DNA of 43,249 nt from assembly GCA_030429365.1 (NCBI GenBank), contig JAUIEW010000010.1:1-43249 (forward strand), in the 5' to 3' direction. A program made the translations under genes and the position numbers. Numbering within the stretch: the first letter of the stretch is position 1; every line of letters starts with the position of its first letter. Shown one piece after another: positions 5,176-38,284 of this stretch. The notes beneath the pieces are model-generated. The model did no database searches. It had not been told where the DNA came from and saw only the letters and a list, made by a program, of their open reading frames with translations. Source of the stretch: Phycisphaerae bacterium. Its GTDB lineage: Bacteria > Planctomycetota > Phycisphaerae > UBA1845.

Positions 5176-5530
5176 GTCAAGGGCTAATGCCGATCAGACG
5201 GGGAGTGTGTGCGCTTGTACTGGCGCAATTCCTCGACTGTGGCTGACGCCTCCCCCGAATCCCTATTTAGATCTTATTCCACAAGGGTTTGTTTTGCGGC
5301 CTATGTGCAGGTTTGTCGGCGGACAAGCATGAGAAGCGCTCGCGTGCGTATCGCGGGAAGCGTTCTCTGGGATGGTATGTCTGTTCCGAACAATTGGTTG
5401 CTGTCGTCGGTTTTTCTCTCGGTAGTTGGCTCCGGCGATCGTTATGCAAATCGCACTTTGGGTAAAAGGCAAACCACACTTTGGCCATGGGTTTCCAAAT
5501 GCACGACCGATAACAAACGCGAGGTACAAA

Positions 5531-8500
5531 ATGACATTTTTCAGGGGCGGAAAAAGCACATTTATTGCACTCAATCTCTGCGCAGCGTTATTCCTGGCAG
5601 TGCAATCTTCGGTAGTCATGGGGCAGCCGTATTCGTGCTCAACAGTGGCTGGTACAGAAGGCGGGGCGGCGCTGCCTGCCGCGTTTGAGAATAACGGATT
5701 ACTGGTTGTCCATTACAACGCGAGCGCGACGATGGCGACGGCTGGTCCTGCCAACATTGCGTTTGTGGAAATTCGCGATGCGCAGTTTGCAGGTAGTCCG
5801 GCGTTACCCGATCCTCAAAATTATGGGATGAATGTCATCCTTCCGTCGCCGCTTACGGCTGACGGTTCGAATCTTCCACCGGCATTGTCGACGTTGGATT
5901 TGGCGACAGGCGGTATCGGTGAACCTGCATTCGGTGGCTTGCCGGCACAATGGACCGTCGATTACTACAATGGGCTGAATGTGCCCGGCAGCTTGGTCGG
6001 AGCGCGAACGCATACCGTCTTGTTTGGGTCGGTTTGCGATGCAACAGCCACGTTTGATCCTCTCAATGACGGGACAAACCCACCTGGTGTTTTCGATGAT
6101 AAGCAATTGGCCAAAACGCTGTTCAAAATCGATGACGGTATTTATCACAGCGTCAATAACCCTGAGGTTCACGTTGTCAATGCGACGGTTGCGCTGACGG
6201 GCACACCAATTCCAGGTCTTCAGCCGGTCACACCATTTCTTCTGGGCGTTTCGGATTTGACCGAACAAGGCTTCTCGACTGACCCTGGTCTACTGACGGG
6301 AAGCAACGAAACGTTCGTCAACGTGTGGCGCGTCTCTGACAACGCGCAGAATACGCTGTCGTCAGTTGTTGAAAACATCTTGGAGTTCAAGTTGGCGTCG
6401 GGTTCCGATTGCGTCAAACCGGGTGAGACGGTCACCGTTGAACTTCATCAGCGAAACCTCACTGAGCCGGCACGTGGGTATCAGGCTTTTGCCGCGTATG
6501 ACAGCGCGATGATGACAAATCTCACGCAGACGTTCACGCCTTCGCCTTATGGGCGAACCCTGCTGAATTCTGTCGCTGGTGATGACATCGACGCAGCAGC
6601 AGGTATTGACGAAGACTTTCAATCGCCGACGGCTGCTGACGCGTTGTTGGCGACGTTGACATTCACTGCCGGTGGGACTGATGGGGTGACGTCGGTCGGA
6701 TTCCGTGTTCACTCACCGCCGACGCGTTTTTCAGATGTAGATGGCTTGGAACTGACGCCTTACCTGATTGACTCACCTCAAATCGTGATTGACGGAACTG
6801 ATCCTGTCATCACATTCTGCCCTTCCGATGTCACCATCGAATGCGATGAATCAACCGATCCTTCCAACACGGGTGAGGCCACAGCGACCGACAATCTTGA
6901 TCCGAATCCTTCCGTAACCTATTCCGATAGTGTGGTCGCGGGCATCTGTCCGCAGGAGTTTGTCATCACCCGGACGTGGACCGCGACCGATTGTGCTGGC
7001 AACGAATCAACCTGCGTGCAAGTGATCACGGTTGACGACTCCGTCGCGCCAACCGGGACGCAGGGTACGATCGACAGCTGCTATGCAACCGCTCTCGATG
7101 CGGAAGCGGCGGCGATCGCGGCTACGACCGACCTTGCTGACAACTGCACAGACGTCGGTTCACTGCTGGTCAGTGCGGTGACGGCTGGGACTTGCGATAC
7201 AACCGTCACTGTGACGGTGGCCGACCTCTGCGGTAACTCAACCGATTTCGTCTACAACACGCGAATTGACTCCACGCCGCCGGCACTTAGCTGCCCGGCA
7301 TCTCCGCCACAGGGCTTGATCATCAGCGAAATCATGGACGGGACTTGGCCGGCAGGCTTACCCAAGTTTGTTGAACTGACCAACTGCAGCTCCGCACCAG
7401 TGGATCTTTCCGGGTACAGCCTGGGCAATATCAACAACGGATCCTCCACGATGGGTTTCGACGCGGTGGTTCTTTCGGGAATTCTGGCGTCGGGTGATTC
7501 GTTCGTCGTGTCGTACGAAGCCGGTGACTCGCCTGGGCATGGAACCTTCTTCGACGTGTATGGTTTCGATCCAGATGAATTTACGCAGGGTCCGTTCATC
7601 AACGGAAACGATGCTCTTGCGCTTTTTGCCGGAGCGGCGCTGTCGGGTGACCCTGTTGACGGCAGCGGTGCGCCGGTGGTCGATCTTTACGGTGTTGTGG
7701 GCGTTGATGGCATTGGCGAGGTATGGGATTACACCGATGGTTTTTCATTCCGCAAGCCTTATGTCGTTGGCGGGAATGGCGGCGTCTTCAGCCCGCTTGA
7801 ATGGCTGTTTGGCGGCGCAGATTCGTTGGTGGCTGCGAATGACGCTGACGAATTGGCATTGATGCTCGCGAATACGACGCCCGGCGTCCACGTGTGCAGC
7901 GGTGGTGAAGTTGTGGTGTCCACCGATCCTGGAACGTGCGAAGCCGAAGTCACCTTGACGGTTTCGGCGACGGATGATTGTGACGGTGTTCTGCCGGTGA
8001 CCTACGAAGCTGACTTTGGAAGCGGCTATGTCTCCATCAGCAATCCGTACACCTTCCCAGAGGGGACATGGTCGGTTAAGGCTTCGGCTGTTGACACATG
8101 CAACAACACTGGCTCCTGCGAATTCTCCGTGACGGTTCTGGATGACGAACCGCCGACGGCGACGCAGGGCACCATCGATGATTGTTACGAGACTTCGGCT
8201 GAAGCCGAAAGTGCGGCAATCGCTGCAACCACCGACTTGGCTGACAACTGCACGACGTCTAATTTTGTTGTGACCGCATCAACGGTTGGAGATTGCAACG
8301 CGATAGTGACGGTCAGTGTGGCCGATGAAGCCGGAAACGTCACGACGTTCGACTACTTCACGACGGTGGACGGAACGCCGCCGGCCATCGCTTGCCCCGC
8401 ATTCTCTGTTGGTGGATTCATCATCAGCGAGGTGGTTGACGGCACACTTTCAGGCGGGATACCCAAGTTCGTGGAGTTGACGAACTGCACACCCAACACC

Positions 8501-10000
8501 ATCGATCTGTCTGAATACCGAGTCGCCCTCTACTCCAATGGCGGCCTTACTGAAAGCTCGTCGAGCCTTGCATACGGTGAGTTGACCGGATTGCTTCCAT
8601 CGGGGGCGTCCTTCGTCATCGCCAATTCCAACAGCGGGCCGGGTACTGATTTCCTTGGAATCTACGGCTTCGAAGCGAACGTTTACGATGCAGTGGCCAA
8701 CAGCAACGGAGACGATCTTTATCAACTGTTGAAAGACAATGGGGTAGGCGGTGACATCGTCATCGACGCCCACGGTGTCCTTGGGGTAGACGGTACTGGG
8801 GAAGCCTGGGAGTATCTCGACAGCTACGCATATTCGCTCCCGGGTCGAACGGCGAATGGTGGCGCGTTCAATCCGGCCAACTGGTTCCATGCGGGCGCTG
8901 ACGCGCTGGACGGCGCCGGGACGGCTGGCATTCTCGCAGTGACCACTCCAGGAACGCACACCTGCGCGAGTTCATTGATCACAAATGCTGATCCGGGCAA
9001 TTGCGACGCATTGGTCACTTTTGCGGCACCAACCGCGACCGACAACTGCGATCCGGCTCCGACGGTGGTTTGCGATCATCTCAGTGGCGAGGTTTTCCCG
9101 GTTGGAACGACCACCGTCACGTGCATGGCCACCGACGAATGTGGCAACACATCCACATGCGAGTTCGATATTGTGGTCAACCCACTCAACGACTTGGCGG
9201 TCACGGTCGAATTGCAGCCGAATATCGATACCGGACTCTCGCTTCCCGATACGCTGACGCGGTGCATCACGTTCGAGTTGTGGGAATGCGGTGGTCCAAG
9301 CTCGGTGACAGTGAGCGAAGAAATCGAATTCTCCATTACCAACAGCGGGCTTCCGGGCGATCCCAATATGGCGATTGGCTCTGCATTGATCGAAGTGCCG
9401 TGTGGGGCTTATTCCTGCATTACCGCCCGCGATCCGCTTCACACGCTTCGCCGCACCGATGAATCGTTCGGCATCATCGGCAGTCAATACGTCGCCGACT
9501 TTACCGGTGATGCGAATGCCGGTGGCGACTGGCTGGTTGGTGGAAATCTCAACGACGACTTCTTCATCGATATTCTCGACTTTGGCGCCTACTCGTTTGA
9601 GTTTGGAAACATCTATGGAAGTCCTTTCACGGGCGACACCGATTGTCTGACGCCGGCGCCCCATGCTGATATCAGCGGCGACGGCATCGTCGACAACTTC
9701 GACTTCTCGTTCATCCAAGGAAACTTCCTCGATACGCATGAAGCGAATTGTTGCGGAGATCCAGGTCGACAAGCAGCAGGCGACGACGGTCCAGTGACAG
9801 AGATCACCATTCGCGAGTTGCGCCGACGCGGTCTCGGACACTACGCCATCGGCGACCTCAACAACGACGGCCGCCTCAATTATGAAGACATTGAAGCGTT
9901 TGCCCAAGGTGTCCGACCCAAGCCCAAGAAAAGTTTGTCGCCAGACCACAAAGACGAACTGAGTCCCCAAAACGAGGAACAGGCCAGACCCGAACGCTAA
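5531..10000 (+). CDS. Giant secreted multidomain protein: cohesin-like, HYR-like, duplicated lamin-tail domains, triple EF-hand C-terminus
   Basis: 1489 residues. The frame is open from 5426, but ATG 5531 is chosen because it follows gaggt by 5 nt and begins a signal peptide (MTFFRGGKSTF, then a hydrophobic core, cleavage near VVMGQ). Approximate order: N-terminal domain 35-280; cohesin-like beta domain 282-420; HYR-like repeat 422-501 (TIECDEST, TATDN); then two copies of a GTQGTID/TATQGTID repeat plus lamin-tail domain (507-786 and 876-1146, each with IISEI/IISEV..PKFVELTNC), with an Ig/HYR-like unit 790-875 between them; a HYR-like repeat 1149-1218; and a C-terminal module 1220-1489 with three calcium-loop-like motifs (NLNDDFFIDILDF, DISGDGIVDNFDF, DLNNDGRLNYEDI). 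Numerous Cys pairs fit an exported protein. It is paralogous to the next gene. The role is unknown; a surface adhesion or matrix protein is plausible. Confidence 0.88.
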   Translation: MTFFRGGKSTFIALNLCAALFLAVQSSVVMGQPYSCSTVAGTEGGAALPAAFENNGLLVVHYNASATMATAGPANIAFVEIRDAQFAGSPALPDPQNYGMNVILPSPLTADGSNLPPALSTLDLATGGIGEPAFGGLPAQWTVDYYNGLNVPGSLVGARTHTVLFGSVCDATATFDPLNDGTNPPGVFDDKQLAKTLFKIDDGIYHSVNNPEVHVVNATVALTGTPIPGLQPVTPFLLGVSDLTEQGFSTDPGLLTGSNETFVNVWRVSDNAQNTLSSVVENILEFKLASGSDCVKPGETVTVELHQRNLTEPARGYQAFAAYDSAMMTNLTQTFTPSPYGRTLLNSVAGDDIDAAAGIDEDFQSPTAADALLATLTFTAGGTDGVTSVGFRVHSPPTRFSDVDGLELTPYLIDSPQIVIDGTDPVITFCPSDVTIECDESTDPSNTGEATATDNLDPNPSVTYSDSVVAGICPQEFVITRTWTATDCAGNESTCVQVITVDDSVAPTGTQGTIDSCYATALDAEAAAIAATTDLADNCTDVGSLLVSAVTAGTCDTTVTVTVADLCGNSTDFVYNTRIDSTPPALSCPASPPQGLIISEIMDGTWPAGLPKFVELTNCSSAPVDLSGYSLGNINNGSSTMGFDAVVLSGILASGDSFVVSYEAGDSPGHGTFFDVYGFDPDEFTQGPFINGNDALALFAGAALSGDPVDGSGAPVVDLYGVVGVDGIGEVWDYTDGFSFRKPYVVGGNGGVFSPLEWLFGGADSLVAANDADELALMLANTTPGVHVCSGGEVVVSTDPGTCEAEVTLTVSATDDCDGVLPVTYEADFGSGYVSISNPYTFPEGTWSVKASAVDTCNNTGSCEFSVTVLDDEPPTATQGTIDDCYETSAEAESAAIAATTDLADNCTTSNFVVTASTVGDCNAIVTVSVADEAGNVTTFDYFTTVDGTPPAIACPAFSVGGFIISEVVDGTLSGGIPKFVELTNCTPNTIDLSEYRVALYSNGGLTESSSSLAYGELTGLLPSGASFVIANSNSGPGTDFLGIYGFEANVYDAVANSNGDDLYQLLKDNGVGGDIVIDAHGVLGVDGTGEAWEYLDSYAYSLPGRTANGGAFNPANWFHAGADALDGAGTAGILAVTTPGTHTCASSLITNADPGNCDALVTFAAPTATDNCDPAPTVVCDHLSGEVFPVGTTTVTCMATDECGNTSTCEFDIVVNPLNDLAVTVELQPNIDTGLSLPDTLTRCITFELWECGGPSSVTVSEEIEFSITNSGLPGDPNMAIGSALIEVPCGAYSCITARDPLHTLRRTDESFGIIGSQYVADFTGDANAGGDWLVGGNLNDDFFIDILDFGAYSFEFGNIYGSPFTGDTDCLTPAPHADISGDGIVDNFDFSFIQGNFLDTHEANCCGDPGRQAAGDDGPVTEITIRELRRRGLGHYAIGDLNNDGRLNYEDIEAFAQGVRPKPKKSLSPDHKDELSPQNEEQARPER

Positions 10001-10105
10001 TCGCGAATGACAGTCTCGAATCCTCTGCAATGAGAATTGACTTGAGGATAGGAAAACACAGTGGGCCAGAAGCTAGACGCTGAGGCCGAAAAACGGAGGA
10101 AGCAA

Positions 10106-13100
10106 ATGCTCTTTAGAATAAACAACATGGTAATTGCCAGTGTATTGGCGACTTTTCTAGTCGGCGGCACTGCATTGGCAGGGAATAGACCGGCGGGCGT
10201 CATTCCATTTGAAGGGCGTCCCGATGCCATCGACACGTCTCATGCCTCAATTGCATCAGGGCTGCGAGGTGTCGGGCCAGGAATCCAGGCGGGCGCCGAC
10301 CATATCGCGTCGCAACAATGCCCCGTCGGGGGGTTCTGTTGGCCGCACGGGAACGCATGCTGTCCCACGGCGCCAACCAATATCACCGGGCCTATCGGGC
10401 TAGGCTTGTTGCACGCACACACGATTACTTCGGACCCAGCGCACCTGGCGGCTGCAACACTAGGTGGGGATTACGATCTCACGGTCCAGTATCCAAACAC
10501 AGAGTTTCGTCTGGGCGCGTTTACAGCGTATTTTCTATGGAAGCTTACGGCTGCAACTGGCGACACCCAGTATCAGGATCATGCCGCAACAGCTTTCTAT
10601 GATGAGCTTGCGGCTGGCACGTACGGGCCAAGCGACTATGACACGCTCGGTTGGATTGGTGCGGTCGAAGCATCTCGTACAGGCACTTGGGTCAATCTTC
10701 GTCCGTGGGAATTCCACAATCAGATTCCCGCAGCGGATGTCCTGGGCAATGCGGGACAGAGTGCGGCGTTTGAAGCCGCGTGCCTGGCAGGACTGAACAC
10801 GCTGGATAACACCGACCCGTCATCTGTCTACTCCGATCTCATCGGCGTGGCCGGAGGGGTTCGTGGTCTTTCCTTTGCTGGCACCACCGCATTCCCTGCG
10901 ATCGTTGCCCCCAACCACGCAGGAGTCAATGGCCTTTCCACGTTACAGGCGCTGGCCGACTATTTGGCAAGCCAGCAGAACGCAGATGGATCTTGGAACT
11001 GGCATTCGGATCTTTCGACCCTCGGAGGTGCGACTGAAACCGACAAAGATACGCAAACGACGGCATACGCCATTTTGGCGTTGCTGGAGGCAGACGCACA
11101 TGTGGCCTCGGACTACTCGTCGAACATCGAAAGCGGTCGCGCTTGGTTGCGCACCATGCAATTGCTCGACGGCGGGTTCATGAGTTATCCCGGTGGAAGT
11201 GAAAACACGGAAGTCGAAGCCGAGGCCTTGAATGCACTTGCTCCAGATTCATGCACACAAGACAGACTGGAATTCCAATTGGCAAGTGGATCCGAATGCG
11301 TGCAGCCCACCGAAACGGTCGAAGTCGAACTCCACCAGCTCAATTTGTCCGGTCCTGTTCGTGGATACCAGGCATTCGCTCAGTTTGATAGTTCGGTAAT
11401 GACGCATGTTTCCAATGTGTTCACGAGTTCGCCATACGCTTTCATCCTGGAAGACTCTGTGAGCGGAGATGAGTTGAACCTCGCAGCCGGCATCGACGAC
11501 AACACGCAATCGACGACGTCCGCGGATGCACTGCTTGCGACCATCTCATTTACTGCCGGCGCGGTTGAAGGTCCGACAACCGTCAGTTTTCGGGCGACCT
11601 CGATCCCAACGCCGCCGTCAAGATTCTCAGATCCGTTTGGAGGCGAGGTCACGCCATGTCTCGTTCAGTCGCCCACCATCGTCGTCGATGGAACGGCACC
11701 GGTTCTGACTTGCCCAGTTGATTTGACGATCGAGTGCGACGAATCGACCGATCCATCGAACACGGGATCGGCGACAGCGACCGACAATCTTGATCCAAGC
11801 CCCTTTGTCGACTACAGCGACGTCATTACACCAACGGGCTGCGATGAAGAATGGACGATCACGCGTACATGGACGGCAATCGACTGTGCCGGTAATGAGT
11901 CGATGTGCGTACAAACGATTACCGTCGAAGACTCAACGGCTCCGGTCGTGACCTGTCCGGCTGACACGACAATCGAATGTGATGCGTCGACTGCCCCCAA
12001 CGATCTGAACATTGGTCTTGAGTTCCCGTTTGATGCGAATCCGACTCTTGGTGCGTCGCAGGCACCGGGTGTCTGGTATACGGATCGATATGCTCCATTT
12101 GGATTCGCTTCTGTTTTCTTCGATGGCGACAACAGACTCAGACATTCCATTGATGCAAGCGACTGTTCGCCATGTCGGGGCGGCCAAAGCAGCAGCTTCT
12201 ACGATACGCAGGGACGCAAATACGACCTCCCAGCCGACACGACTCGAATGAGCATCGATCTGTACATCCCGGCTGACTGGGCAACGACCGAAAGGCGAAT
12301 GGCCGGCTTCTGGGGAACAGCTGTTGATTCGGGCGATGTGATTTCAGGATTCCCGATTATCGAATTCACGAGCACGACTGATGACAGTGGCGTACCGCGC
12401 TTCCGTGGCTGGACCAGCGAAGGATCAGGCGGTTGGATTGATATGGGGCTGCCCACGGGATTTGTGTATGACGCATGGTACACGCTTGAGATCGAGTTGG
12501 TGGGCGCGTCCTGGGTATTCAGAGTCGGCGATCTGGAATTGCTTACGCCGGGATTGGGAAGTGTCCGCATTGATAACCTCATCCTTCAAGGACACAACAA
12601 CACCGCAGGTGTTACCTACGACATCCATTGGGACAACTACTTGGCGGCTGGCAGCGTTCAGGCAACCGACAATTGCGATCCGGCTCCGTCAATCTCGTTC
12701 AGTGATTCGTCAGTGGCCGGTGCATGTCCGCAGGAATCGACGATTACCCGCACGTGGACGGCGACCGATTGCGCCGGGAATTCGAGCAGTTGCGATCAAA
12801 CGATTGAACTGGTTGATACAACAGCGCCAGTGATCGGCGCCTGCCCGGCTGACATTGAGGTAAATGCGGATGCTGGTGATTGCGACGCGGTCGTAACCTT
12901 CACACCGCCAACGGCGACCGACAATTGCGATGGTGCGCCGACGGTGGTTTGCGATTGGCCGAGTGGGTCGACATTCCCATCGGGAACCACGTTGGTCACT
13001 TGCACGGCCACGGATGGGTGCAACAACTCGTCTGCCTGCGACTTCAACGTGACGGTCAATGCGTTTAACGATTTGACGGTTGACGTTGAGCTTGACCCAG

Positions 13101-13822
13101 CAGTTTCGATGCCGGCATCCGTGACGCGGTGCATCACGTTTGAATTGTGGGAATGCCCGGGTGGAGCGCCGGCAGCGACGGTAACCGCTGACATGCTGTT
13201 CCTCAACGGCCTTGCTTCCGACACGATCGATATTCCGTGCGGAAACTACACCTGCATCACGGCCCGCGATGAGTTGCACACGCTGCGACGGACCGACCTC
13301 GATGACTTTGGCATTTCAGGTACCGAGTATGTGGCCGACTTCACTGCAAGTGGCGCAACCGATGACGATTCGCTCATCGGCGGAAACCTGAATGACGATT
13401 TCTTCATCGATATTCTGGACTTCGGTACGTTCTCGGCTCAGTGGGCGACAACGCCTTCACCTGACACGCCGTGTCCGGTTGGCGGTGCCCATGCAGACAT
13501 CAACAGTGATGCGAATGTTGACAACCTCGACTTCTCGTTCATTCAAAACAACTTCCTCGAGACCCATGAGGCGAATTGCTGCGGCGCGCTTAACCGTGAG
13601 GCTGGCGGATCTGAAGGTCCGGTGACCGATATTTCGATCGCCGAACTTCGACGGCGTGGATTGGGGCATCTCGCGGTGAGTGACTTGAACCATGACGGCC
13701 GGTTGAACATGGACGATGTGATCGAGTTTGCGAACGGGGCGCGGCCTCAGAAGCTCAAGCCGGATCATGCGCAACCCCAGAATGCCCAGCTTCAAAGTGG
13801 CATTCGGCGTCCTGGTCGGTAG
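10106..13822 (+). CDS. Giant secreted protein: terpene-cyclase-fold repeat domain, cohesin-like, HYR-like repeats, inserted LamG-like domain, triple EF-hand C-terminus
   Basis: 1238 residues. ATG 10106 is preferred over GTG 10061 because ggagg precedes it by 6 nt and a signal peptide follows (MLFRINNMVIASVLATFL, cleavage near TALAG). Residues about 42-378 look like an alpha/alpha barrel of the prenyltransferase/squalene-cyclase or pectate-lyase-like type (ASQQNADGSWNWH, TQTTAYAILALLEA, GRAWLRTMQLLDGGF). A cohesin-like domain follows at 383-528, then HYR-like repeats from 530. One repeat is interrupted at about 632-851 by a concanavalin-like/LamG-like domain. Residues 987-1238 closely match the C-terminus of the preceding gene, including the loops NLNDDFFIDILDF, DINSDANVDNLDF and DLNHDGRLNMDDV. 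It starts 105 bp after the previous gene in the same direction, so co-transcription is possible. Enzymatic activity of the barrel is not shown. Confidence 0.88.
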   Translation: MLFRINNMVIASVLATFLVGGTALAGNRPAGVIPFEGRPDAIDTSHASIASGLRGVGPGIQAGADHIASQQCPVGGFCWPHGNACCPTAPTNITGPIGLGLLHAHTITSDPAHLAAATLGGDYDLTVQYPNTEFRLGAFTAYFLWKLTAATGDTQYQDHAATAFYDELAAGTYGPSDYDTLGWIGAVEASRTGTWVNLRPWEFHNQIPAADVLGNAGQSAAFEAACLAGLNTLDNTDPSSVYSDLIGVAGGVRGLSFAGTTAFPAIVAPNHAGVNGLSTLQALADYLASQQNADGSWNWHSDLSTLGGATETDKDTQTTAYAILALLEADAHVASDYSSNIESGRAWLRTMQLLDGGFMSYPGGSENTEVEAEALNALAPDSCTQDRLEFQLASGSECVQPTETVEVELHQLNLSGPVRGYQAFAQFDSSVMTHVSNVFTSSPYAFILEDSVSGDELNLAAGIDDNTQSTTSADALLATISFTAGAVEGPTTVSFRATSIPTPPSRFSDPFGGEVTPCLVQSPTIVVDGTAPVLTCPVDLTIECDESTDPSNTGSATATDNLDPSPFVDYSDVITPTGCDEEWTITRTWTAIDCAGNESMCVQTITVEDSTAPVVTCPADTTIECDASTAPNDLNIGLEFPFDANPTLGASQAPGVWYTDRYAPFGFASVFFDGDNRLRHSIDASDCSPCRGGQSSSFYDTQGRKYDLPADTTRMSIDLYIPADWATTERRMAGFWGTAVDSGDVISGFPIIEFTSTTDDSGVPRFRGWTSEGSGGWIDMGLPTGFVYDAWYTLEIELVGASWVFRVGDLELLTPGLGSVRIDNLILQGHNNTAGVTYDIHWDNYLAAGSVQATDNCDPAPSISFSDSSVAGACPQESTITRTWTATDCAGNSSSCDQTIELVDTTAPVIGACPADIEVNADAGDCDAVVTFTPPTATDNCDGAPTVVCDWPSGSTFPSGTTLVTCTATDGCNNSSACDFNVTVNAFNDLTVDVELDPAVSMPASVTRCITFELWECPGGAPAATVTADMLFLNGLASDTIDIPCGNYTCITARDELHTLRRTDLDDFGISGTEYVADFTASGATDDDSLIGGNLNDDFFIDILDFGTFSAQWATTPSPDTPCPVGGAHADINSDANVDNLDFSFIQNNFLETHEANCCGALNREAGGSEGPVTDISIAELRRRGLGHLAVSDLNHDGRLNMDDVIEFANGARPQKLKPDHAQPQNAQLQSGIRRPGR

Positions 13823-14047: not shown

Positions 14048-14662
14048 ATGGTGAGTAAGAAACCTCAGTTAACGATTGTTGTCATTGCAGGTTTGCTCGG
14101 TTTGTCGGTCGCAGATGCGAACGGCGGTCCGATCAGCTTGGAGTGGCGTCCCGCAGTTCAAAGTGTTGTTGTTGGGGACACGATCAACATCGGCCTCTAC
14201 GCGGTCTCTGACGATAGCGTGGACGATGAAATCTCGGTGATGGATGTCATTCTTGAATGGGACCCCTCGTTCATGAGCCTTCAAGGGCTCGATAACAATG
14301 GCCCATACAATTGGCTTTCGTCATCGTTTCCAGCCACGGCGATCGGTGGGTTAAACCCGGATCATTCCGATGGTGACGCGACCTATACGGCTCGGAGCCA
14401 ATTCCTACCTCCGTCGGCAATTGCAACGCCGGGTGGACTGTTGGTGACGACGGTTCAGTTTCTCGCGCTGGCAGAAACACCGGGAACGATGCTTTCTATT
14501 CCCGAATCAAAGGGCTTGGCTGAGACTACAGTGATTGGCGACATCCCAGGATTCGACGTTCACAGCTCGCTGGGAAGCGCGATGGTGACGATTACTCCGG
14601 AACCGGCATCGTTCATGTTGCTGATTGCGGGAGCAACGATGGTGATTCGTCGCAGAGCCTAG
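14048..14662 (+). CDS. Exported cohesin-like domain protein with PEP-CTERM sorting signal
   Basis: 204 residues. ATG 14048 follows aggag by 7 nt. There is a signal peptide (MVSKKPQLTIVVIAGLLGL, cleavage around ADANG). Residues about 28-178 are a beta-rich domain of cohesin/CBM-like character (VVVGDTINIGLYAVS, SVMDVILEWDPSFMSLQG, TVQFLALAETPG). The C-terminus is a textbook PEP-CTERM tail: TPEPASFMLLIAG, a hydrophobic stretch, then MVIRRRA. PEP-CTERM proteins are known substrates of exosortase-type sorting to the cell surface; no exosortase is in the window. The next gene encodes a close paralogue of the same domain with a different C-terminal tag. Confidence 0.93.
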   Translation: MVSKKPQLTIVVIAGLLGLSVADANGGPISLEWRPAVQSVVVGDTINIGLYAVSDDSVDDEISVMDVILEWDPSFMSLQGLDNNGPYNWLSSSFPATAIGGLNPDHSDGDATYTARSQFLPPSAIATPGGLLVTTVQFLALAETPGTMLSIPESKGLAETTVIGDIPGFDVHSSLGSAMVTITPEPASFMLLIAGATMVIRRRA

Positions 14663-14833
14663 GTGGACCGACGCCCGTACGCTTGCGGGTTCGATATTTT
14701 GGTTGGTGATCTTGCCATGCGCTCTCGGTTGATAAAGCCGAGTTGCGTGCGGAGATGTTGTGTTGCTCTTCAGGTGACTCGAGATGTCACTTTTGGAATG
14801 CGGAATCAGAGCTGCGGAGTGGGGCGGGATAGA

Positions 14834-15574
14834 ATGAATGGGCACAAGTTTGTTGTTACTGTTGTTTTCGCGACTACGGCATTGCTCGGCAGCAAGTGCG
14901 TTGCGGGCACTGTCGATCTTGAATTTCGACCTTCCTTTCAAGTGGTGGCCCCAGGCGAGACCGTAAACGTTGGTCTTTATGCCGTCTCAGCTGACGAGAC
15001 CGATGATGTGATTTCGGTCATGGACGTGGTTTTGACATGGGACCCCGCAATCCTGAGTCTCCAGGGTGTGGTCAACAATGGCCCCTATGACTGGTTGTCT
15101 TCAGGCTTCCCTTTTAATGCGATTGGCGGACTCAATGTTGATCTGGATGATGGTGACGCCACGTACACTGCGCGAAGCCGGTTCGCGCCTCAACCGTCCG
15201 CAATGGCAACGTCCAACGGACTTCTTGTGGCCACGATTCAGTTCGTTGCAGTCGCAGAGTCTTCGCCAACAACATTAAACATCGTCGAATCAATAGGGAT
15301 CGCGACCACAAAAGTTGTCAGCGACATTCCGGGCTTTGATGTTCATGGGCAATTGAATGGTGCGACGTTTGTTGTGCAGTCCTGCGTTGATTCCGATCCT
15401 GATGATGACGGTGACATCGATCTCGTGGATTATGCCGCGTTTCAACAATGCTTCGGCGTGAGTTCGACGGATCAGTTTGCCATCGATTGTTTGTGTTCGT
15501 TTGATTCGGATAACGACGGCGACATCGACCTTTCCGATTATGATTCATTCGCCGTGGGGATCACTGGCCCTTGA
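14834..15574 (+). CDS. Exported cohesin-like domain protein with dockerin-like double EF-hand C-terminus
   Basis: 246 residues. The frame is open from 14663, but ATG 14834 starts a good signal peptide (MNGHKFVVTVVFATTALLG, cleavage near KCVAG), with a purine-rich ggagtggggcggga stretch upstream. The mature domain matches the preceding PEP-CTERM protein almost motif for motif: PGETVNVGLYAVSADE, SVMDVVLTWDPAILSLQG, NNGPYDWLSSGFP, DGDATYTARS, SDIPGFDVHG. Instead of PEP-CTERM it ends with two calcium-loop motifs (DPDDDGDIDLVDYAAF and DSDNDGDIDLSDYDSF) separated by a Cys-containing linker. This is the dockerin-like tail typical of planctomycete secreted proteins. The pair looks like a tandem duplication followed by exchange of the C-terminal tag. 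Confidence 0.92.
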   Translation: MNGHKFVVTVVFATTALLGSKCVAGTVDLEFRPSFQVVAPGETVNVGLYAVSADETDDVISVMDVVLTWDPAILSLQGVVNNGPYDWLSSGFPFNAIGGLNVDLDDGDATYTARSRFAPQPSAMATSNGLLVATIQFVAVAESSPTTLNIVESIGIATTKVVSDIPGFDVHGQLNGATFVVQSCVDSDPDDDGDIDLVDYAAFQQCFGVSSTDQFAIDCLCSFDSDNDGDIDLSDYDSFAVGITGP

Positions 15575-15668: not shown

Positions 15669-18086
15669 ATGCGTCGTTCCAACACCATTGCACGGAGACC
15701 AATGCTCGTGAAAAACCACGCACACGTTTTTGGACTGCTGACGTGCTTTGCCTTTGGTGCCATTTTCGTTGCAGACGTTGCCCGTGCGGATGTCCGGTAC
15801 TCGTTTGTCTTTCGCAGCGACCAGGTAGTTCCGCCAACCGCAAGCATCTCAGCCGGTCAAGGGGCGGCTACGCTGAACACTGCTCAAACGGAATTGGTTT
15901 TCGCCGTGTTGCATGGTGTTTCTGGCGCGACGGCTGCGACGGTTCACTCGGGCGACCCCGGAACCAATGGTCCCGTCGAGTTTGCGCTGACCATGGTCAA
16001 CGCAACAACTTTCGCCGGTACGTGGGCGATTGATTCGAGCGGAATTGCCGATCTCCAAGCCGGGCGGCTTTATGTGCAGATCGAATCGGACCTTTACCCC
16101 GACGGAGAAATCCGCGGGCAGATCGATCTGAATCCCAATCCGATGCCGGGTGATGTGATCATCACGGAAATCATGTACGACCCTCTGTCGCCGGAGGGGA
16201 ATTTTCCCGATCCACCTTTCGCCGCCAACTCTGAGTGGATCGAATTGTTCAATACGACATTTACGGATATTGACATTGGCGGATGGTTTTTTCAGGACGA
16301 GGACGTCGACGAATCGGCTCCTTGCACATCGCTGCGCAGCGGTACATTCCCACCGTTTGTATTGCGATCATTCGAAACGGTTGTCGTTATTCCGGATGGC
16401 GCAGAACTCAATGGCGAGTTGCCAAGCGTCGCTGACTTCAAAACATCGTGGAATCTTGGCCCCAACATCAATGTGATTCAGCTCAACGCGGATGGAACAA
16501 CCGGTGGAGCGATCGTCGGACACAACCTTTCGAACAATCCGTTTAGCGACAACTTCGACAATGATCTGCCGCTGATTCCAGACCCGCCATTGTGGTCACC
16601 TTGCGGCACATTCAATCGAAGCGACAACGAAATCCTCACGCTCAACGATGGGGGACAGATTATCGACGTCGTGAACTTCGGCGACGAGTTTGCGATCGAG
16701 GTCGGCGCGATGGATTGGCCCAACCCTGTTCCCGGCGCCAGCATTCAACTCGTGCCAGCCGACTATCCTGCGCTTCCCCCGATGGACGTCAGCAGTTTCA
16801 GTGCATCGGGCAATGACGATCCAAACAACTGGATCGGGCATGAACCAGCGGACCTTGCAGGTGGGACCCAACAGTCGGTCGAAGCGGGGGTATATAAAGG
16901 TGATGACATTGGGTCACCTGGGTTTTTGTACGGCGCATCGACAGGCAATCAGCCGCCCGTTGCAGTGGGCGAACAAGTGCCCATGAATCCTGGGCAATCC
17001 AGACTGGTCACGATGGATGGGACAGACAACACCCGACCTTTCTTCGGTCTGCTGTTGTTCTTGATCAAGTCGCTTCCGCAGAATGGCAACCTGATCGACA
17101 TTGCAGGCGGCAACCACGTGATTACGGCTGGGGATATAAGCGGGAATGGCTACCTGATGCCGATGATTCCGTTTGATCTGGTTCGCTATACAAACAATGG
17201 AACCTGCGGATTGGACTCGTTTTCGTTTGCGACGTTCGATGGAATCGTCGAGTCCGCTCCGGTGAATGTTGAGTTCTTCGTTCAGTGCGGCGAGGTCGTC
17301 ATCACGGAGATCATGTACAACCCCGATTCGACAGAAAACAGTCCGTCCGAAGCTGAATGGATCGAGCTTTACAACAACGCCGACTACCCGATCGACCTGA
17401 GCGGTTGGTATTTTGCCGACAATTTTACGCGTAGCGGCGACTTTCCTTCGTATATCCTCGGCGCGAAATCGGCGGTGGTGGCGATACCTCCTGTCGCGGA
17501 TCCGAATGAGTACCTGAGCGGCTGGGGTTCGCAATTTGTGCACATCACCACCAACGGCGACACGGGCAACGGCGGCATCACCGGATCGAATCTCTCGAAT
17601 GGCGGTGAGTCACTTCGATTGGTCAAGCCCGGCGGGAGCGCTCCGCTTATTTCTGATGCTGTCTTTTATAAGGGCGGTCTCGTTGATCCGGCGTGGCCGC
17701 AATTGGGCGTCGATGGCCCAAGCATCTACGTTCGACCGTCGGTTTCGTACAACGCACTCGCGAACGACAACCCGCTGATATGGGAGAGGTCGATCAACGG
17801 GATTGACGGTGCGGCATTGGTGGAGTTGACGGCTGTCTATGATGGTGATGATATCGGATCACCAGGATTTCTTCAGGGATTGATCCAGGGACCATGTCTG
17901 CCATTCGGTTTCAGTCATGACGGCAACCGAGACTTGAATGTTGATGAAAGAGACTACGCTCATTATGACCTCTGCTCATTTGGTCCTGGCATTGACATCC
18001 CGCTGAATTGCGACTGCTTTGATACGGACGACGATGGTGACCTTGACCTCATTGACTTCGCCGATTTTCAGGTGGAGTTTGATTGA
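15669..18086 (+). CDS. Secreted CHRD and lamin-tail-domain protein with dockerin-like C-terminus
   Basis: About 805 residues. ATG 15669 (aggg 8 nt upstream) or ATG 15702 (ggag 4 nt upstream, shorter n-region) are both possible starts; each gives a signal peptide ending near DVARA. Residues about 41-157 form a CHRD-type domain (VVPPTASISAGQGAATL, LYVQIESDLYPDGEIRGQI). Two lamin-tail domains follow, at about 163-410 and 541-737, each opening with VIITEIMY and containing EWIELFN or EWIELYN and an IDIGGWFF or IDLSGWYF strand. Between them lies an Ig/cadherin-like unit (about 428-538). The C-terminus (746-805) has a degenerate first loop (HDGNRDLNVDERDY) and an intact second loop (DTDDDGDLDLIDF). 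Substrates or partners are unknown; a surface-attached structural or binding protein is likely. Confidence 0.88.
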   Translation: MRRSNTIARRPMLVKNHAHVFGLLTCFAFGAIFVADVARADVRYSFVFRSDQVVPPTASISAGQGAATLNTAQTELVFAVLHGVSGATAATVHSGDPGTNGPVEFALTMVNATTFAGTWAIDSSGIADLQAGRLYVQIESDLYPDGEIRGQIDLNPNPMPGDVIITEIMYDPLSPEGNFPDPPFAANSEWIELFNTTFTDIDIGGWFFQDEDVDESAPCTSLRSGTFPPFVLRSFETVVVIPDGAELNGELPSVADFKTSWNLGPNINVIQLNADGTTGGAIVGHNLSNNPFSDNFDNDLPLIPDPPLWSPCGTFNRSDNEILTLNDGGQIIDVVNFGDEFAIEVGAMDWPNPVPGASIQLVPADYPALPPMDVSSFSASGNDDPNNWIGHEPADLAGGTQQSVEAGVYKGDDIGSPGFLYGASTGNQPPVAVGEQVPMNPGQSRLVTMDGTDNTRPFFGLLLFLIKSLPQNGNLIDIAGGNHVITAGDISGNGYLMPMIPFDLVRYTNNGTCGLDSFSFATFDGIVESAPVNVEFFVQCGEVVITEIMYNPDSTENSPSEAEWIELYNNADYPIDLSGWYFADNFTRSGDFPSYILGAKSAVVAIPPVADPNEYLSGWGSQFVHITTNGDTGNGGITGSNLSNGGESLRLVKPGGSAPLISDAVFYKGGLVDPAWPQLGVDGPSIYVRPSVSYNALANDNPLIWERSINGIDGAALVELTAVYDGDDIGSPGFLQGLIQGPCLPFGFSHDGNRDLNVDERDYAHYDLCSFGPGIDIPLNCDCFDTDDDGDLDLIDFADFQVEFD

Positions 18087-18485: not shown

Positions 18486-21272
18486 CTATTGAGAATGGGC
18501 CTCCAAACGATCACGAATTTGGCTGAGCGATTCTGGTTCATTTAGGGCTTCATAGAGTTCTACGAGCGCCTCCAGGGCGTCGCGGCCATATTTCTTGTTG
18601 GCCCATTGGGAATCGGAAAGGTAGTCGTCAGCCGCGGTCAATTGCACCTGGGCATCGTCGAACTTTCCCATTTTCGTTAGACATCGGCCATAGTCGGTCT
18701 GGAAAATGGCGCGAACCGTTTTGGCATGCGGTGCTTCTTCGTAGTTCGCCGAGAGGATATGTTCATAGATCGCCTCGGCTTCGTCGTATCGCTCGATTCG
18801 AACGAGCAATTTCGCCAGATCATTCTCGGCGTGAAGCGTGTTGGGATGGTCGTCGCCAATGGTCGTGCGGTAGAGTTCCAGCGTTTCGCGCAGCAGGACT
18901 TCCGCTTCTTCAAATTCAACCAGATCGATCAGGGTCAGCCCCAGATAGGAACGGGCGTAGAGCGATTGCGGGTGATGTTGCCCAAGCGTTGCGTCGGCGG
19001 CTTCAACTGTTTCTTCAAAGACGCGCCGCGCGTCGCCATAACGTTCGAGGTAGCGGTAGGCGGTTCCGAGCGCCTGACCGTTGATGATCACATCCATGTT
19101 ATTGTCGCCCAGCGACTCTTTGGTTTGATCGTAAATCACCTGCAGCAGTTTGGCCGCCTCGGCGTATTGCTCCAGATTCATAAGAGCCGTTCCGAGATTC
19201 CCATTGATGGTAAGCACATCCGGATGGGATTCGCCGAGGATCGGCACAGCGATGGCCGCGGCTTCCTCAAGCAGAGGCCGACCGTCTGCAAAGCGGCCCT
19301 GTCGAAGGTACAGCGTCGCCAACTTGTTGAGCGCGATCGCGGTGCGTGCATCGTTTGCTCCCCAGATGCGACGCGCGTCAACCACAATGCGTTCGTTGAG
19401 TGGGGCAGCGTCTTCATAGCGCCCTTGCCACTTGTAGGTGTCGGAAAGACTCCCGCGAATTTGGACGGCCAACTCACCCTCTTGATCGGTTGCCTCAACC
19501 GTTTTCAGGGCCCGAGTCAATATGGTTTCAGCCTCGTCGAAATTGCCCCGGTCCAGTTCGACCGACGCGAGCGCATCCATCGATGACAAGGTATCGATAT
19601 GTTCAATTCCGTTTACGGATTCGAGAAGATCCAAGGATTCCCGTGCAATGGCAGCCGCCTCGTCGAGTCGTCCCGTTCGACGCAGCAGCTCAACCATCGG
19701 GACATTGGCAACCACCGATTGTGTGTCAGTTGCATCATGGAGCGATTGATGAATGGTTACGGCTTCTTTCAAATGGGGCTCGGCTTTTGCGTAATTGCCA
19801 AGCGCCATGTACGTGCGACCGATGGTCAGTTCAATCGCCGCGCGAACTTCATCTCGATTTGGAAATCTTGAAGCGATCTTGCGTGAGGCGCGGTCCAGCG
19901 CTTCTTTGACGGTGATGTCGCTTGCGGGTTCCGTCAGCGGATTGGCGAGCGACAGCAGGTCTTCGTTTAGAAAGTCGTTGATCGCACTGGCGATTTCGAA
20001 TTGACGCTCGGCTTCGCTGCGCTGACGTTCGGCGACGATACCGCCTCGAATCACGCCGGCAGCGCCGATGATCATTGCCAGACAAGCCGCCACCGATGCG
20101 ACGAACGCCAGGCGTTGCCGCTGTGCGAATTTTCGAACCTGATACCGGAGCGAAGGTGGCCGGGCAACGATCGGCTCGTGCGCCAGATACCGCCGCAGGT
20201 CCGCGGCCAACTCGCCCGCCGTTTGGTAACGCTGGTCGGGATCTTTTTCCAATGCCTTATGAATGATCGTCTCAAGGTCGCCCGCCAGCCGGCGGTCCAG
20301 CCGGGAGAGTCGCGGCGCGACAGAATCAATGATCACGCCTGAGGCCTGCGGGATGTTCTTTCCCGTCAAGTCATAAGGCGGTTTTCCCGCAAGCAGTTCG
20401 TAACCAATGACACCAAGGGCATACACATCGCACTTCGTATCGATGTTTCGTGAGTCGCCCGACACCTGCTGCGGACTCATGTACTGAAGGGTGCCAACGA
20501 GTTGGGTTCCATCGGTGTCGTTCGTCAATGCAGGTCCGTCGCCATCGACGATTCGGGCGACGCCGAAGTCCAAGACCTTGCTGCGACCGGACGCGTCGAT
20601 GACGATGTTGCTCGGTTTCAGATCGCGGTGAATGACGCTTTTGGTGTGCGCATGTTGCACGGCGTCGCAGATTTCGGCGAGCAGCTTGACGCGCTGTCGA
20701 ATCGTGAGTTGCCGACGGTCGGCGTATTCGGTGAGCGGCTCGCCCTCAACGAGTTCCATGGCGAAGTAAGGTCGATTCGCGCTGCGATCATCTCCGCTTT
20801 CATCCGCACCGGCTTCAAAAATCTGGGCGATGCCTGGGTGCTGAAGTCGGGCGAGTGCTTCTGCCTCCAAGGCGAATCGCTGAAGCGACTTGGCTCCCAT
20901 GAGTCCTTGGCGGATGGCTTTGAGCGCCACCGTTCGTTTCGGGTTTTGTTGCTCGGCCCGATAGACGACACCCATCCCTCCTTTGCCCAGCACGTCGAGG
21001 ATTCGATAGTTTCCGAGCCGCTCCGGTATCTGCTCGTTGTCCAAGTTGGGCAACTGTGAAATCAATTTCCCGATTTCGAGTGATGCCACCAGCGCCGGCG
21101 TTTCCAGATCGACTTTGGGAGCGTCATATTGGGTCAGCATCGCCACAACTTTGTCGCGAACCGCCAGATCCGAACCGCACGCGCTTTGTACGTATTCTTC
21201 ACGCGCGGTCGCATCAAGTCGGGTCGCCGCGAGGAAAACCTCACTAACGCGTTGATGTTGCGCTGGTGTCAT
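18486..21272 (-). CDS. Membrane Ser/Thr protein kinase with C-terminal TPR repeats
   Basis: 928 residues from ATG 21272 (GTG 21275 would add one residue). The kinase domain is at about 90-365: glycine loop LGKGGMGVVYRAE, Lys in VALKAI near 118, catalytic HRDLKPSN near 217, DFGVAR near 236, activation-segment end MSPQQVSG. A transmembrane helix at about 388-408 separates the kinase (inside) from a long helical region of TPR-type repeats (about 465-900; for example YMALGNYAKAEPHLKEAV, LYLRQGRFADGRPLLEEA). Its start overlaps the stop of the sigma-factor gene (tgatg), implying translational coupling. This kinase/TIGR02999 sigma pairing is widespread in planctomycetes. The kinase is thought to respond to envelope signals and may act on its partner sigma factor (inference). 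Confidence 0.95.
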   Translation of the reverse strand: MTPAQHQRVSEVFLAATRLDATAREEYVQSACGSDLAVRDKVVAMLTQYDAPKVDLETPALVASLEIGKLISQLPNLDNEQIPERLGNYRILDVLGKGGMGVVYRAEQQNPKRTVALKAIRQGLMGAKSLQRFALEAEALARLQHPGIAQIFEAGADESGDDRSANRPYFAMELVEGEPLTEYADRRQLTIRQRVKLLAEICDAVQHAHTKSVIHRDLKPSNIVIDASGRSKVLDFGVARIVDGDGPALTNDTDGTQLVGTLQYMSPQQVSGDSRNIDTKCDVYALGVIGYELLAGKPPYDLTGKNIPQASGVIIDSVAPRLSRLDRRLAGDLETIIHKALEKDPDQRYQTAGELAADLRRYLAHEPIVARPPSLRYQVRKFAQRQRLAFVASVAACLAMIIGAAGVIRGGIVAERQRSEAERQFEIASAINDFLNEDLLSLANPLTEPASDITVKEALDRASRKIASRFPNRDEVRAAIELTIGRTYMALGNYAKAEPHLKEAVTIHQSLHDATDTQSVVANVPMVELLRRTGRLDEAAAIARESLDLLESVNGIEHIDTLSSMDALASVELDRGNFDEAETILTRALKTVEATDQEGELAVQIRGSLSDTYKWQGRYEDAAPLNERIVVDARRIWGANDARTAIALNKLATLYLRQGRFADGRPLLEEAAAIAVPILGESHPDVLTINGNLGTALMNLEQYAEAAKLLQVIYDQTKESLGDNNMDVIINGQALGTAYRYLERYGDARRVFEETVEAADATLGQHHPQSLYARSYLGLTLIDLVEFEEAEVLLRETLELYRTTIGDDHPNTLHAENDLAKLLVRIERYDEAEAIYEHILSANYEEAPHAKTVRAIFQTDYGRCLTKMGKFDDAQVQLTAADDYLSDSQWANKKYGRDALEALVELYEALNEPESLSQIRDRLEAHSQ

Positions 21273-21841
21273 CACTGGTCATCTATCGAAAGTTCGCTCA
21301 GCAGCCACGCCTTGGCAATCGTCCAATCGTCGACCACGGTGGATCGGGAGATATCCAAGACATGGGCGATTTCCTCGTTTGTTAATCCTCCGAAGAAACG
21401 AAGCTGCACAACACGGCACTGCCGTTCATTGAGTTTGGCGAGCGATTCCAACGCATCCTCCAGGGCAAGCAGATCCAAACGGGTGACGTCTTCGCCCGCG
21501 CTGATGTCCCCCAAGGTAACGCGTTGCCAGTCATTGCCGCGCTTGGCCGAATTTCTTTTTCTTGCGTGGTCGATGAGAATGCGCCGCACCGCAGTTGCCG
21601 CCACCGCCAGGAAATGGGCCCTGTCTTTCCAATCAACCCGCGTCTGATCGAGCATCCGCAGATAGGCCTCATTGGCGATTGCGGTTGGTTGGAGCGTGTG
21701 GTTGGCGGGTTCTCGCCGTAAATGTCGGGCGGCCAACATTCGAAGTTCGTCGTAGACCAATGGCATCAACCGGTCAGCCGCCCGCTGATCGCCCGCCGCA
21801 AGGTCATGAAGAATCGTGTTGGCGTCGTGTTCGGTACTCAT
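21272..21841 (-). CDS. ECF-type RNA polymerase sigma factor, TIGR02999-like
   Basis: 189 residues from ATG 21841. Sigma region 2 is seen in MPLVYDELRMLAARHLRRE and the conserved TIGR02999-type block LQPTAIANEAYLRML and FLAVAATAVRRILIDHARK. Region 4 at about 127-180 has LAKLNERQCRVVQLRFFGG, LTNEEIAHVLDISRSTV and DWTIAKAWLL. This sigma class occurs with TPR Ser/Thr kinases, and here the kinase start overlaps its stop codon. No separate anti-sigma gene is adjacent. It is divergent from the giant beta-helix gene at 22127, separated by 285 bp, which makes that gene a candidate target, though I could not identify a promoter motif. Confidence 0.95.
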   Translation of the reverse strand: MSTEHDANTILHDLAAGDQRAADRLMPLVYDELRMLAARHLRREPANHTLQPTAIANEAYLRMLDQTRVDWKDRAHFLAVAATAVRRILIDHARKRNSAKRGNDWQRVTLGDISAGEDVTRLDLLALEDALESLAKLNERQCRVVQLRFFGGLTNEEIAHVLDISRSTVVDDWTIAKAWLLSELSIDDQ

Positions 21842-22126: not shown

Positions 22127-25100
22127 ATGACTTACCGCTTCCATTCAAACCGACGTTTCAGTCTGATTCTATCCATCGCAGTATCGTTGATCGTTGCACA
22201 ACAAAACCTCATTGCCCAAACCACGGCGACCTGGGACAACGGGCAAGCCGGCGACCAATCTTGGGATAGCCCCATGAATTGGAATCCCGATGTTGTGCCA
22301 AACAACGATGACGAAAACAGCTACGACGTTGTTGTCGATGTTGCCAATATCGATCTCGGTTCAAACATTACCGTCAGCAGCATGGACCTGAACCAGGGAG
22401 GGGCGGCTGGCGTCACGATTAACGGTTCGGGCCAGTCGCTGGAAGTCGAAGGAACGACGCTTGCCGAGGATGTTCATTTTCTGGGAAGCGGGCAATTCAC
22501 ATCGGCTGGCGTTAACGTCACCGGGTCGGTGTTGCTGGGTGGGGCTTGGTTGATGAATCCCGGCCCGGTCATGTTGGGCACGGGGGCTGCGAATGGCGAG
22601 TTCGTGATGCAGGACACGGCAACGCTGATCCTTCAGGATACGTTCGACATCTTAAAAGACGGCGACTTCCTGAATTTCGGCGGGACACCGGACATCCAGA
22701 ATTCGGGGGCATTCAGGAAGTCCGGCGGGACCGACCTGTCAAACATCGCGGTGCGCTTTGAAGACGTTGGAGGAACAATCAGCGCGGCAAGCGGATTGCT
22801 CAAATTTAACAACACGTCGTTACTGGGATCGACGGTCACGCCATCGAACTCAGCGGTCATCCAATTCAGCGGACCGACTGAGGTTTCATCCCTGACGTTA
22901 TCGCCAGCCGACTTTGGCAAGATCGAATTTGACAATGCGACCGTCACGCTCGGGACCATCACCGGTTCGGGGAGCGATCTGTCGACGATAATCGCCAAGA
23001 ACGGCGGCAGCATCTCGGGCGGATCGATCAACATGTCAATGGAATTACTGCCATTTGTCATTGAGGGCCCGAGCATCGACGGGGTAACCAACCTTGGCTT
23101 CTGCGAATGGCGCCTGGGCAAGGTGACGGGTAGCGGCCTTACCAACAATTCGGGCGCAACGTTGAATACCGCGTTTGCTGGAATCGGCACGCCCACGATC
23201 GAAAACGCGACGCTCACCAACAACGGAAACGTGTTCGTTGATCGCACGATCGGTCTTCGAGACAACGGTAAAATTGATCATCTAAGCGGCGAGTGGACGT
23301 TTCGAAACGGGTCGGCTGGCATCAACACGCAAGTCGGTGGAAATTTGACGGGACTGTTCACCCACGTCGCTCCGATTGTGCTCGACGCACCGGGCGATTT
23401 CACATCGCACATCACCTGCCCCATGACCAGTACGGGCCGCTTCGATATCAAGAATGGCGAATTGCGATTGAACCAGCGCATCGAAGACAAGATGGTGCTG
23501 GATGGAAACATCATCGCCGTCGACGGCGGGAATGGACATGGCGCGACGTTTACGATCGGAAATGACAGCCTGAGCCGAAGCACGCTCAAGAATGCCAGTA
23601 TCACCGTGACAAGCAACGGAGTTTTCCAGTGGGCGGGCACCGGCATTCACAAGATTGAAGGCGAGTTGGTTAGCGGCGGTGTGGGCACTGCTCAGAACAC
23701 TGGTGTGACGCTATTGGCTGAAGCTTCGACTAGCGCGGACCTTCGATTCGATGCGGCTGTCCCATTTCACATGAACAGCAACAACGCCAATCTCCAAGCT
23801 GACGGAACCATCACCAACAAGGATCACGTCAAGTGGTCGTTCGGCGCGGTCACGGGAACCGGACAATTCATCAACGATAGCAACGCGACCATCGACGTCG
23901 ATGCCAACATGCGGATCTCGCGCGGCGACATCTCGACACTCTGCAACAACGGAATGATTCTCCTAACTGGGCTATCGTTCCAGGGGATCACGCTCGATTC
24001 GTTTGGGTTTTTGCAGAACGAAGTCAACGGGACCATTCAATTCCGCGGAGACCAGGATGTGTTTCCGCTGGGTGACGGCGGATTGTTGCGAAACGACGGG
24101 TTGATCGAAAAGAAGTTTGGCAGTGGCGAGTCGTTGATTCACTCCGAGTTCCGGCAAAATGCGGGTGGAACGCTGCGCTCGCGATCAGGAACGATCACCC
24201 TGGATGGCGAGACGATTGACCTGCTGGGCGGGACGGTGTCGGCCAACAGCAATGGAGCGGCGGTTTTGGTGGCAAACTCGTCACGTACGATAAATGTGGC
24301 ATTCGACTTCGCCGAAGACGCCGTTGTTGAGTACGCCAACTTATTGTCTTCGACGGTTCACGAAATCGACGGGACATTGACGGGTAGTGGACTGGGCAAA
24401 CTGGTTTTTTCCGGCGGAACGATGAAACCGCGCGAAGGTTTCGCGACGCTGAACTTTGATGAACCTTCTGAGTTTCATCAATTCAACGGGACCCTCAATG
24501 AAGTCGGCAAGCGCATCTTCAACATGGGCGACGTCTTGATGACCGGCGGAACAGTCGTTGGCGAGTATTTCAACCAGATCGATGGCAACTTCGTGCTGGA
24601 CGGTGGAACAGTGACCGGTGATTACTCCAACGAGGGAATCTTCTCGTGGGGCGGAGGAACCATCGACGCGCAATTCAGCAACGATGCCAATGGCGGCATT
24701 GTCGACATCGATGGCACCAACAACGTACTGTTAGCCGCCGATTCCCAGATCAACAATCAAAACCAGATTCTGCATACCGGGTCGGGCCGCTTGCAACTCG
24801 GTGAGAACGCCGAACTCATCAATGCCAACGGAAGCGAATATATCTTCAGCGGCGGAGCCAACATCGAAGAAGTCGCGAGCCAGATTCAAAACGCCCGCGT
24901 TACGAATACCGGGCGCATCGCCAATGCCGGTTCCATTGACAGCAGCATCAACGTCAAAGTCTCGAGCACCGGGGGGATGTTCGAGACGACCGGCGCCGGC
25001 GATTTGAATATCAACGGTGCGATCGGAGAGCAGGGCGGACAACCGGTCATCAACGGCGGCACGTTCAAACCGGGACCGAGCCAGATCCACACTTTTTTTG

Positions 25101-26680: not shown

Positions 26681-26986
26681 CGGTACCGAAGAATGCAGCA
26701 GCGCCATGCTTTATCAAGCGCGCTCCGATCCGGCAGAATTGCGGTCGGCGACTTTGGTGATGAGGCGTGCGGTGGCTTCCTCAATGCGTGGGTTTGCATT
26801 GTCCATATAAAAACGACATGGGCCTTGTTGCGCCTCGAATGTTGCGATTTCTGCGGCATTTCGCTCGGGGATCGGCTCCGGTGTTGCTTACGAAGTTTGA
26901 CAAATGGGACACATCTGAAGTGGGCGCTGCCAGTTCGAATTTGCTACAATGCCTCCAAAGTCAATCAAGCTTTGAGGAGGCAGCGC
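26681..26986. other. Intergenic region, promoter region of the GHL10 gene
   Basis: About 306 bp with no gene of its own; the open frame that covers it is the upstream extension of the next gene. A tacaat box at 26945-26950 could be a -10 element about 35 bp before the start codon, but no good -35 box sits at the right distance. No terminator hairpin was seen for the upstream gene. Confidence 0.4.
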
Positions 26987-38071: not shown

Positions 38072-38284
38072 TCTTGCGACCCTTTGAGAGTGGCTTAAAC
38101 CATATACCACGGCCTTGACGCGCCCGGCCCGTACGATGTGTGCGTTGATTGTACCAAGATCGCGTGATCAATGTCTGCGCGTAATTCGGATCGCCTATGC
38201 AGTTGGTGCGACATCGTTTGGATGCAATTATTGATTTGAGTCCATGTATTTATTCAGCGGTGTGCACTCATGCCATAGTGAAAC

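Follow-up and report, generated by a model that had tools for sequence, protein, structure and literature searches.

Two adjacent genes of a planctomycete of the class Phycisphaerae encode the same secreted domain with two different C-terminal endings, which raises the question of whether a pair of calcium loops may serve as an attachment signal in the way that a PEP-CTERM tail does, or whether it is a dockerin. Both genes lie on the forward strand of the window, the whole stretch of 43,249 nucleotides that was analysed. Gene A (14048–14662, 204 aa) carries GAAAGGAG immediately 5′ of its ATG at 14048 and encodes a signal peptide, a cohesin-like domain (14123–14593) and a PEP-CTERM tail (TPEPASFMLLIAGATMVIRRRA, 14594–14659). 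Gene B (14834–15574, 246 aa) encodes a signal peptide, a cohesin-like domain (14903–15376) and a double calcium-loop (double-EF), dockerin-like tail (15383–15571). Its start is likely the ATG at 14834, which is followed by the signal peptide, and not the GTG at 14663 where the open frame opens, so that 171 bp would separate the two genes. Both proteins indeed contain all seven motifs named in the first-pass annotation, with MSLQG in place of LSLQG in gene A. The identity of the two proteins is 56% over 177 aa (BLASTP, E 1e-67), and reaches 62–63% over ~157 aa for the mature domain alone in a whole-genome search, where an E value of 2.5e-59 excludes chance. The alignment places the breakpoint between SLGSAMVTI and TPEPASFMLL in gene A, and between QLNGATFVV and QSCVDSDPDD in gene B, with the homology ending directly after the last predicted strand of the shared domain. 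Past this point gene A continues immediately with its PEP-CTERM tail, and gene B with a 65-residue module containing two D-x-D calcium loops. An exchange of C-terminal tags at one position of a common domain, as originally described for this pair, is thus confirmed. A counterpart pair occurs in Phycisphaerales bacterium UBA1845, of the same genus, where the gene A domain is 97% identical and 5.4 kb of the locus align with that of the window, with 87% identity at the DNA level; a narrow alignment search returned 4 related loci.

The first-pass annotation recognised the common domain but missed its fold. Scans of the two genes alone against Pfam and NCBIfam gave nothing decisive and nothing above the Pfam threshold, the domain of gene B reaching 14.2 bits with the Pfam Cohesin family (PF00963, cut-off 24.1). 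In a Pfam scan of 38 relatives, PF00963 was the sole recurrent family, with weak matches in 12 of them (best E 1.7e-4). An AlphaFold model of gene B, the only good one out of five obtained from an input of 8 sequences (mean pLDDT 64.8, the others 38–47), scored 70–85 across most of the domain. The top Foldseek matches of this model were nearly all cohesins (best E 5e-7), and VIA superposed it on the Clostridium cellulosomal cohesin 6kgc with a Z of 15.8 and an rmsd of 2.1 Å over 138 residues. The predicted domain, of moderate model confidence, shows the nine-strand jelly-roll of cohesins. A profile of the family searched against solved structures found a cohesin only marginally (5g5d, E 0.56, below matches to an unrelated protein). 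The shared domain is accordingly assigned to a divergent family with the cohesin fold and a putative capacity to bind dockerins; the gene A domain, 62% identical to that of gene B, takes its fold assignment from the latter. A third single cohesin in the same genome (L303, contig C267, 6849–7535, minus strand) exceeds the PF00963 cut-off with 41.5 bits and continues through a proline linker to a membrane segment with a basic end at the C-terminus. About 2 kb from it lies a dockerin-tailed protein of 1590 aa. Outside Planctomycetota, this cohesin-like domain also occurs, likewise ending in PEP-CTERM, in an Armatimonadetes MAG (L157, 4926–5570).

As for the double-EF tail, the initial reading had correctly seen a double calcium-loop module, and missed its predicted dockerin fold. 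Modelled alone (pLDDT 82.7), the tail of gene B folds as loop-helix, helix and loop-helix, with three helices and two D-x-D loops. The first twelve places of the VIA comparison were all taken by dockerin-bearing chains, the best with a Z of 6.1 and an rmsd of 2.1 Å over 52 residues, whereas calmodulin-type EF pairs reached at most 2.3; a Z of ~6 is modest for a 66-residue domain and can reflect a common arrangement. With this caution on Z, the predicted model points to a dockerin-like fold with putative calcium-dependent cohesin binding. By sequence, the gene B tail alone stays below every Pfam and NCBIfam cut-off and has no match to PF00404, a family that does match some sister tails (e.g., 31.5 bits for L062). 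It resembles other double-EF tails in the window, namely those of the neighbouring CHRD plus LTD protein (15669–18086, tail at 17907–18083, plus strand), of the proteins at 22127–26680 (26492–26677, plus) and 26693–29308 (29123–29302, plus), and of the one at 36452–38110 (36464–36649, minus). Directly upstream of gene A, a HYR-domain protein (10061–13822) contains a dockerin type I on the plus strand (13388–13555) with 25.0 bits for PF00404, over the cut-off. This protein and the one at 5426–10000 have a common terminal module, in which a dockerin-type pair is accompanied by another calcium-loop motif (RRRGLGH..GDLNNDGRLN), and which differs from the double-EF tail of gene B. Genome-wide, double-EF tails number at least 150, the point up to which matches were scored. 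The tail model A2 is tuned to one family and undercounts the tails of other families, which makes it unsuited to comparing counts between genomes of the order. In 107 of 117 collected double-EF proteins the module lies within 10 residues of the C-terminal end.

The other ending is that of a PEP-CTERM protein, since gene A combines an N-terminal signal peptide with a PEP motif, a hydrophobic stretch and a basic C-terminal end. TIGR02595 scored 18.5 bits at 14594–14656 in the genome search (cut-off 16), and 14.5 bits, just below, in hmmscan. The genome (5.23 Mb in 455 contigs, 95% complete) holds about 60 PEP-CTERM tails and one exosortase (TIGR02602, 143 bits, on contig C369), whose neighbours, named from sequence, are an SLBB-type polysaccharide-export protein and a Wzc-like chain-length protein. 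Among 114 genomes of the order, 110 have an exosortase, and the co-occurrence check proposed at first therefore has little power. The three genomes of one family (f2, G001–G003) lack both exosortase and PEP-CTERM tails, and no C-terminal double-EF tail occurred in 400 kb sampled from G003; f2 being a single clade, dependence and common loss are inseparable there.

Within the order, the cohesin domain of the pair was found in 62 of the 114 genomes. It is directly followed by a PEP-CTERM tail in 26 cases (25 by script plus L069) and by a double-EF tail in 38, while 40 members belong to larger proteins. Measured past the domain, 25 PEP tails span 20–38 aa and 37 double-EF tails 62–87 aa. When the tail labels were placed on a maximum-likelihood tree of the family, at least 11 changes were required, and at least 6 on the well-supported branches alone, counting PEP against all other labels. 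The exact number of changes is unsure because many deep forks are weak, yet a single origin of the exchange is nonetheless excluded. Since the pair of the window groups with its UBA1845 counterpart in a single clade (support 100/99), the exchange there followed a local duplication. Adjacent copies (within ~2.5 kb) with different tails were found in this genome (G000) and in G093, G016, G107, G101, G083, G085, G087 and G076, and an adjacent pair with the same tail on both copies in G080. Such discordance was discarded as a standalone statistic, since these 9 genomes against 1 come down to only ~4 against 1 independent origins. Two further observations concern the endings. In L069 (G061, contig C6, 248–1819), no stop codon closes the frame of cohesin plus PEP-CTERM, which continues through a second signal peptide and into a protein bearing a dockerin; this second part resembles the end of the window protein at 10061–13822, so that either a fusion or a lost stop may be involved. 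Four proteins (L105, L253, L254 and L262) have tails judged by eye to be IPTL-CTERM-like where their relatives have PEP-CTERM or double-EF tails, which makes a third alternative ending.

The exchange is not confined to cohesins either, so that the refuting case named in the first-pass annotation, a lack of further families with the exchange, does not apply. When the 61 PEP-CTERM proteins and the 117 double-EF proteins of this genome were compared by their bodies (E 1e-5), 8 PEP proteins, gene A included, cross-matched double-EF bodies, and 10 had a PEP-tailed paralogue. Four more families with both endings were thus found: an adjacent pair on contig C263 (44% identity over 370 aa), the HAF-repeat proteins (NCBIfam TIGR02913), an unnamed domain that carries PEP-CTERM in L193 and double-EF in L062 and L185, and an adjacent pair on contig C117 (L166, 3691–5252, minus strand). 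In the latter, the PEP member is like the zinc-related all3515/ZepA family, below the cut-off, and its neighbour has a double-EF tail. The C263 family is present in 31 genomes of the order and the tandem pair is kept in 13 of them (five of genus g1 and eight of family f8), the double-EF gene preceding the PEP-CTERM gene and the contig of G099 stopping at the PEP motif. In the tree of this family all PEP copies cluster together (92/86), with a single change of label, which identifies the pair as an old duplication with both tails retained. Two genomes (G083 and G089) have in this family a membrane-type tail, IPTL-like by eye, and a second copy with an EF tail elsewhere in the genome.

Altogether, secreted bodies end in one or the other of two alternative C-terminal tails, and the recurrent swap between them suggests two alternative ways to hold proteins at the cell surface. 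Cohesins are the classical receptors of dockerins. The proposal that the planctomycete tail acts as a signal comparable to PEP-CTERM therefore holds as a pattern, given the recurrent exchange and the extreme C-terminal position, but its second half, that this would be so rather than as a cellulosome dockerin, is unsupported, because the tail models as a dockerin and the body exchanged in the pair has a cohesin fold. The reading that we favour, which stands a near-even chance of being right, is that the pair represents single cohesin modules with two alternative attachment devices, gene A as an anchored copy and gene B as a docked adaptor. What the analysis shows is the recurrent exchange, the two folds in the predicted models, the exosortase gene and how numerous both tails are; we infer the processing, docking partner and location of both products as follows. 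Both would be exported by Sec, after which the single exosortase would process the PEP-CTERM copy, leaving it as an anchored cohesin on the cell surface or within the exopolysaccharide layer. The double calcium-loop tail of gene B would fold as a dockerin and be held non-covalently by a cohesin, so that the product, cohesin plus dockerin, could work as an adaptor linking the anchored cohesin to other dockerin-tailed proteins. The membrane-anchored cohesin L303 fits this scheme of anchored cohesin, adaptor and clients. Across the order, a secreted body might either be tethered directly, by a PEP-CTERM or IPTL-like membrane tail, or plugged in through a dockerin, and bodies may switch between both states in evolution. 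A broader version, in which the exosortase-processed PEP-CTERM cohesins are the receptors for the ~150 dockerin-tailed proteins, with gene B as adaptor and bodies switching branch, is put forward tentatively and is, as a whole, somewhat doubtful.

A challenge to a docking role comes from genomes with no apparent receptor. A cohesin was detected by at least one of two profiles in 70 of the 114 genomes, and by neither profile in G094, G095 and G096, all of the same genus. In 297 kb of G095 there are 10 double-EF tails despite no detected cohesin. Either the cohesins of these genomes are too divergent to be detected, or the tail needs none. Cohesins diverge fast, so that their absence by sequence is weak evidence, but the tail may have a cohesin-independent role. 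Close to the original interpretation, the double-EF tail would then itself work as a signal for sorting or attachment, recognised by dedicated machinery or a surface polymer. On the 117 collected proteins the tail stands as a terminal module; it is exchanged with PEP-CTERM on non-cohesin bodies, is abundant in G095, where no cohesin is detectable, and has a relative already named by NCBI as 'GC-type dockerin domain-anchored' (NF041540), to which L265 shows a weak match below the cut-off, all of which would suit such a signal. Against it, neither a membrane segment nor a cleavage motif was seen in the tail, nor a transpeptidase co-varying with it, its fold is dockerin-like, and cohesins are found in most pair-carrying genomes of the window's own family, which makes this alternative unlikely. 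An improbable account as well is that the two copies have different fates, the PEP-CTERM copy being retained at the surface and the double-EF copy released, with the loops only capping or stabilising the protein. The C263 family, whose tails stay with their own orthologous copy across two GTDB families with one change, fits such divided roles more readily than a free exchange of tails, whereas the frequent tail changes in the cohesin family argue against it, as does the strong conservation, across very dissimilar bodies, of the helix pattern and the two loops, which suggests a shared partner. Neutral shuffling, by which duplicated secreted proteins would acquire nearby common 3′ ends of no functional meaning, agrees with how common both tails are in the genome and with the weak deep nodes of the cohesin tree, but is very unlikely given a tandem EF-plus-PEP arrangement preserved in 13 genomes, breaks always at the domain end and tails that keep their consensus.

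The favoured scheme of anchored cohesin and docked adaptor recalls known cohesin-dockerin systems, cellulosomal or not, in the combination of a cohesin fold with a dockerin fold and of few cohesins with many dockerins. In this line, the anchoring and adaptor scaffoldins of the cellulosome resemble the cohesin-plus-anchor and cohesin-plus-dockerin proteins found here. The cellulosome combines a multi-cohesin scaffoldin with plant polymer hydrolases that carry dockerins; in the part of this proteome surveyed, only single cohesins were detected, with low sequence similarity and mostly below the Pfam cut-off, the bodies are not mainly cellulases, and one dockerin-tailed GH18 was seen. PEP-CTERM takes the place of SLH or sortase as the anchor, and docking is predicted from the modelled folds. 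Cohesins and dockerins outside cellulosomes are known (Peer et al. 2009, as cited in PMC5244752 and PMC9012536), and their function there is described as not known (PMC5244752). One precedent is the hypothetical 'planctosome' of freshwater planctomycetes, a surface complex of cohesin, dockerin, HYR and LTD proteins (PMC6461901). The window contains the same kinds of domains, but in the planctosome the anchor is an LTD protein and PEP-CTERM goes unmentioned, whereas here a cohesin bears PEP-CTERM directly. In the PEP-CTERM/exosortase system (PMC1569441), the PEP motif, hydrophobic stretch and basic end are as in gene A, the exosortase likewise sits in an exopolysaccharide cluster, and the joint absence of exosortase and PEP tails in f2 is in keeping with that sorting; that work describes no exchange with dockerins, a word absent from its text. 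The GC-type dockerin (NF041540, cut-off 29 bits), whose name already refers to anchoring, likewise has a double calcium loop at the C-terminus; L265 reaches 20.4 bits with it, and gene B has no match. Among 5.4 million open-licence papers, a scope that is no proof of novelty, none was found with both 'dockerin' and 'PEP-CTERM'. The role of dockerin-like tails beyond cellulosomes is not settled, and this genome alone supplies 150 or more of them. Where one body occurs with two tails, in pairs that many genomes have preserved, nature has in effect set up the controlled experiment already, and a PEP-CTERM-ended cohesin is a concrete candidate receptor that joins two sorting systems so far described apart. 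Facing the surface-protein genes of the window, at 18486–21841 on the minus strand, lies a serine/threonine kinase with TPR-like repeats beside an ECF-type sigma factor, both recognised by eye.
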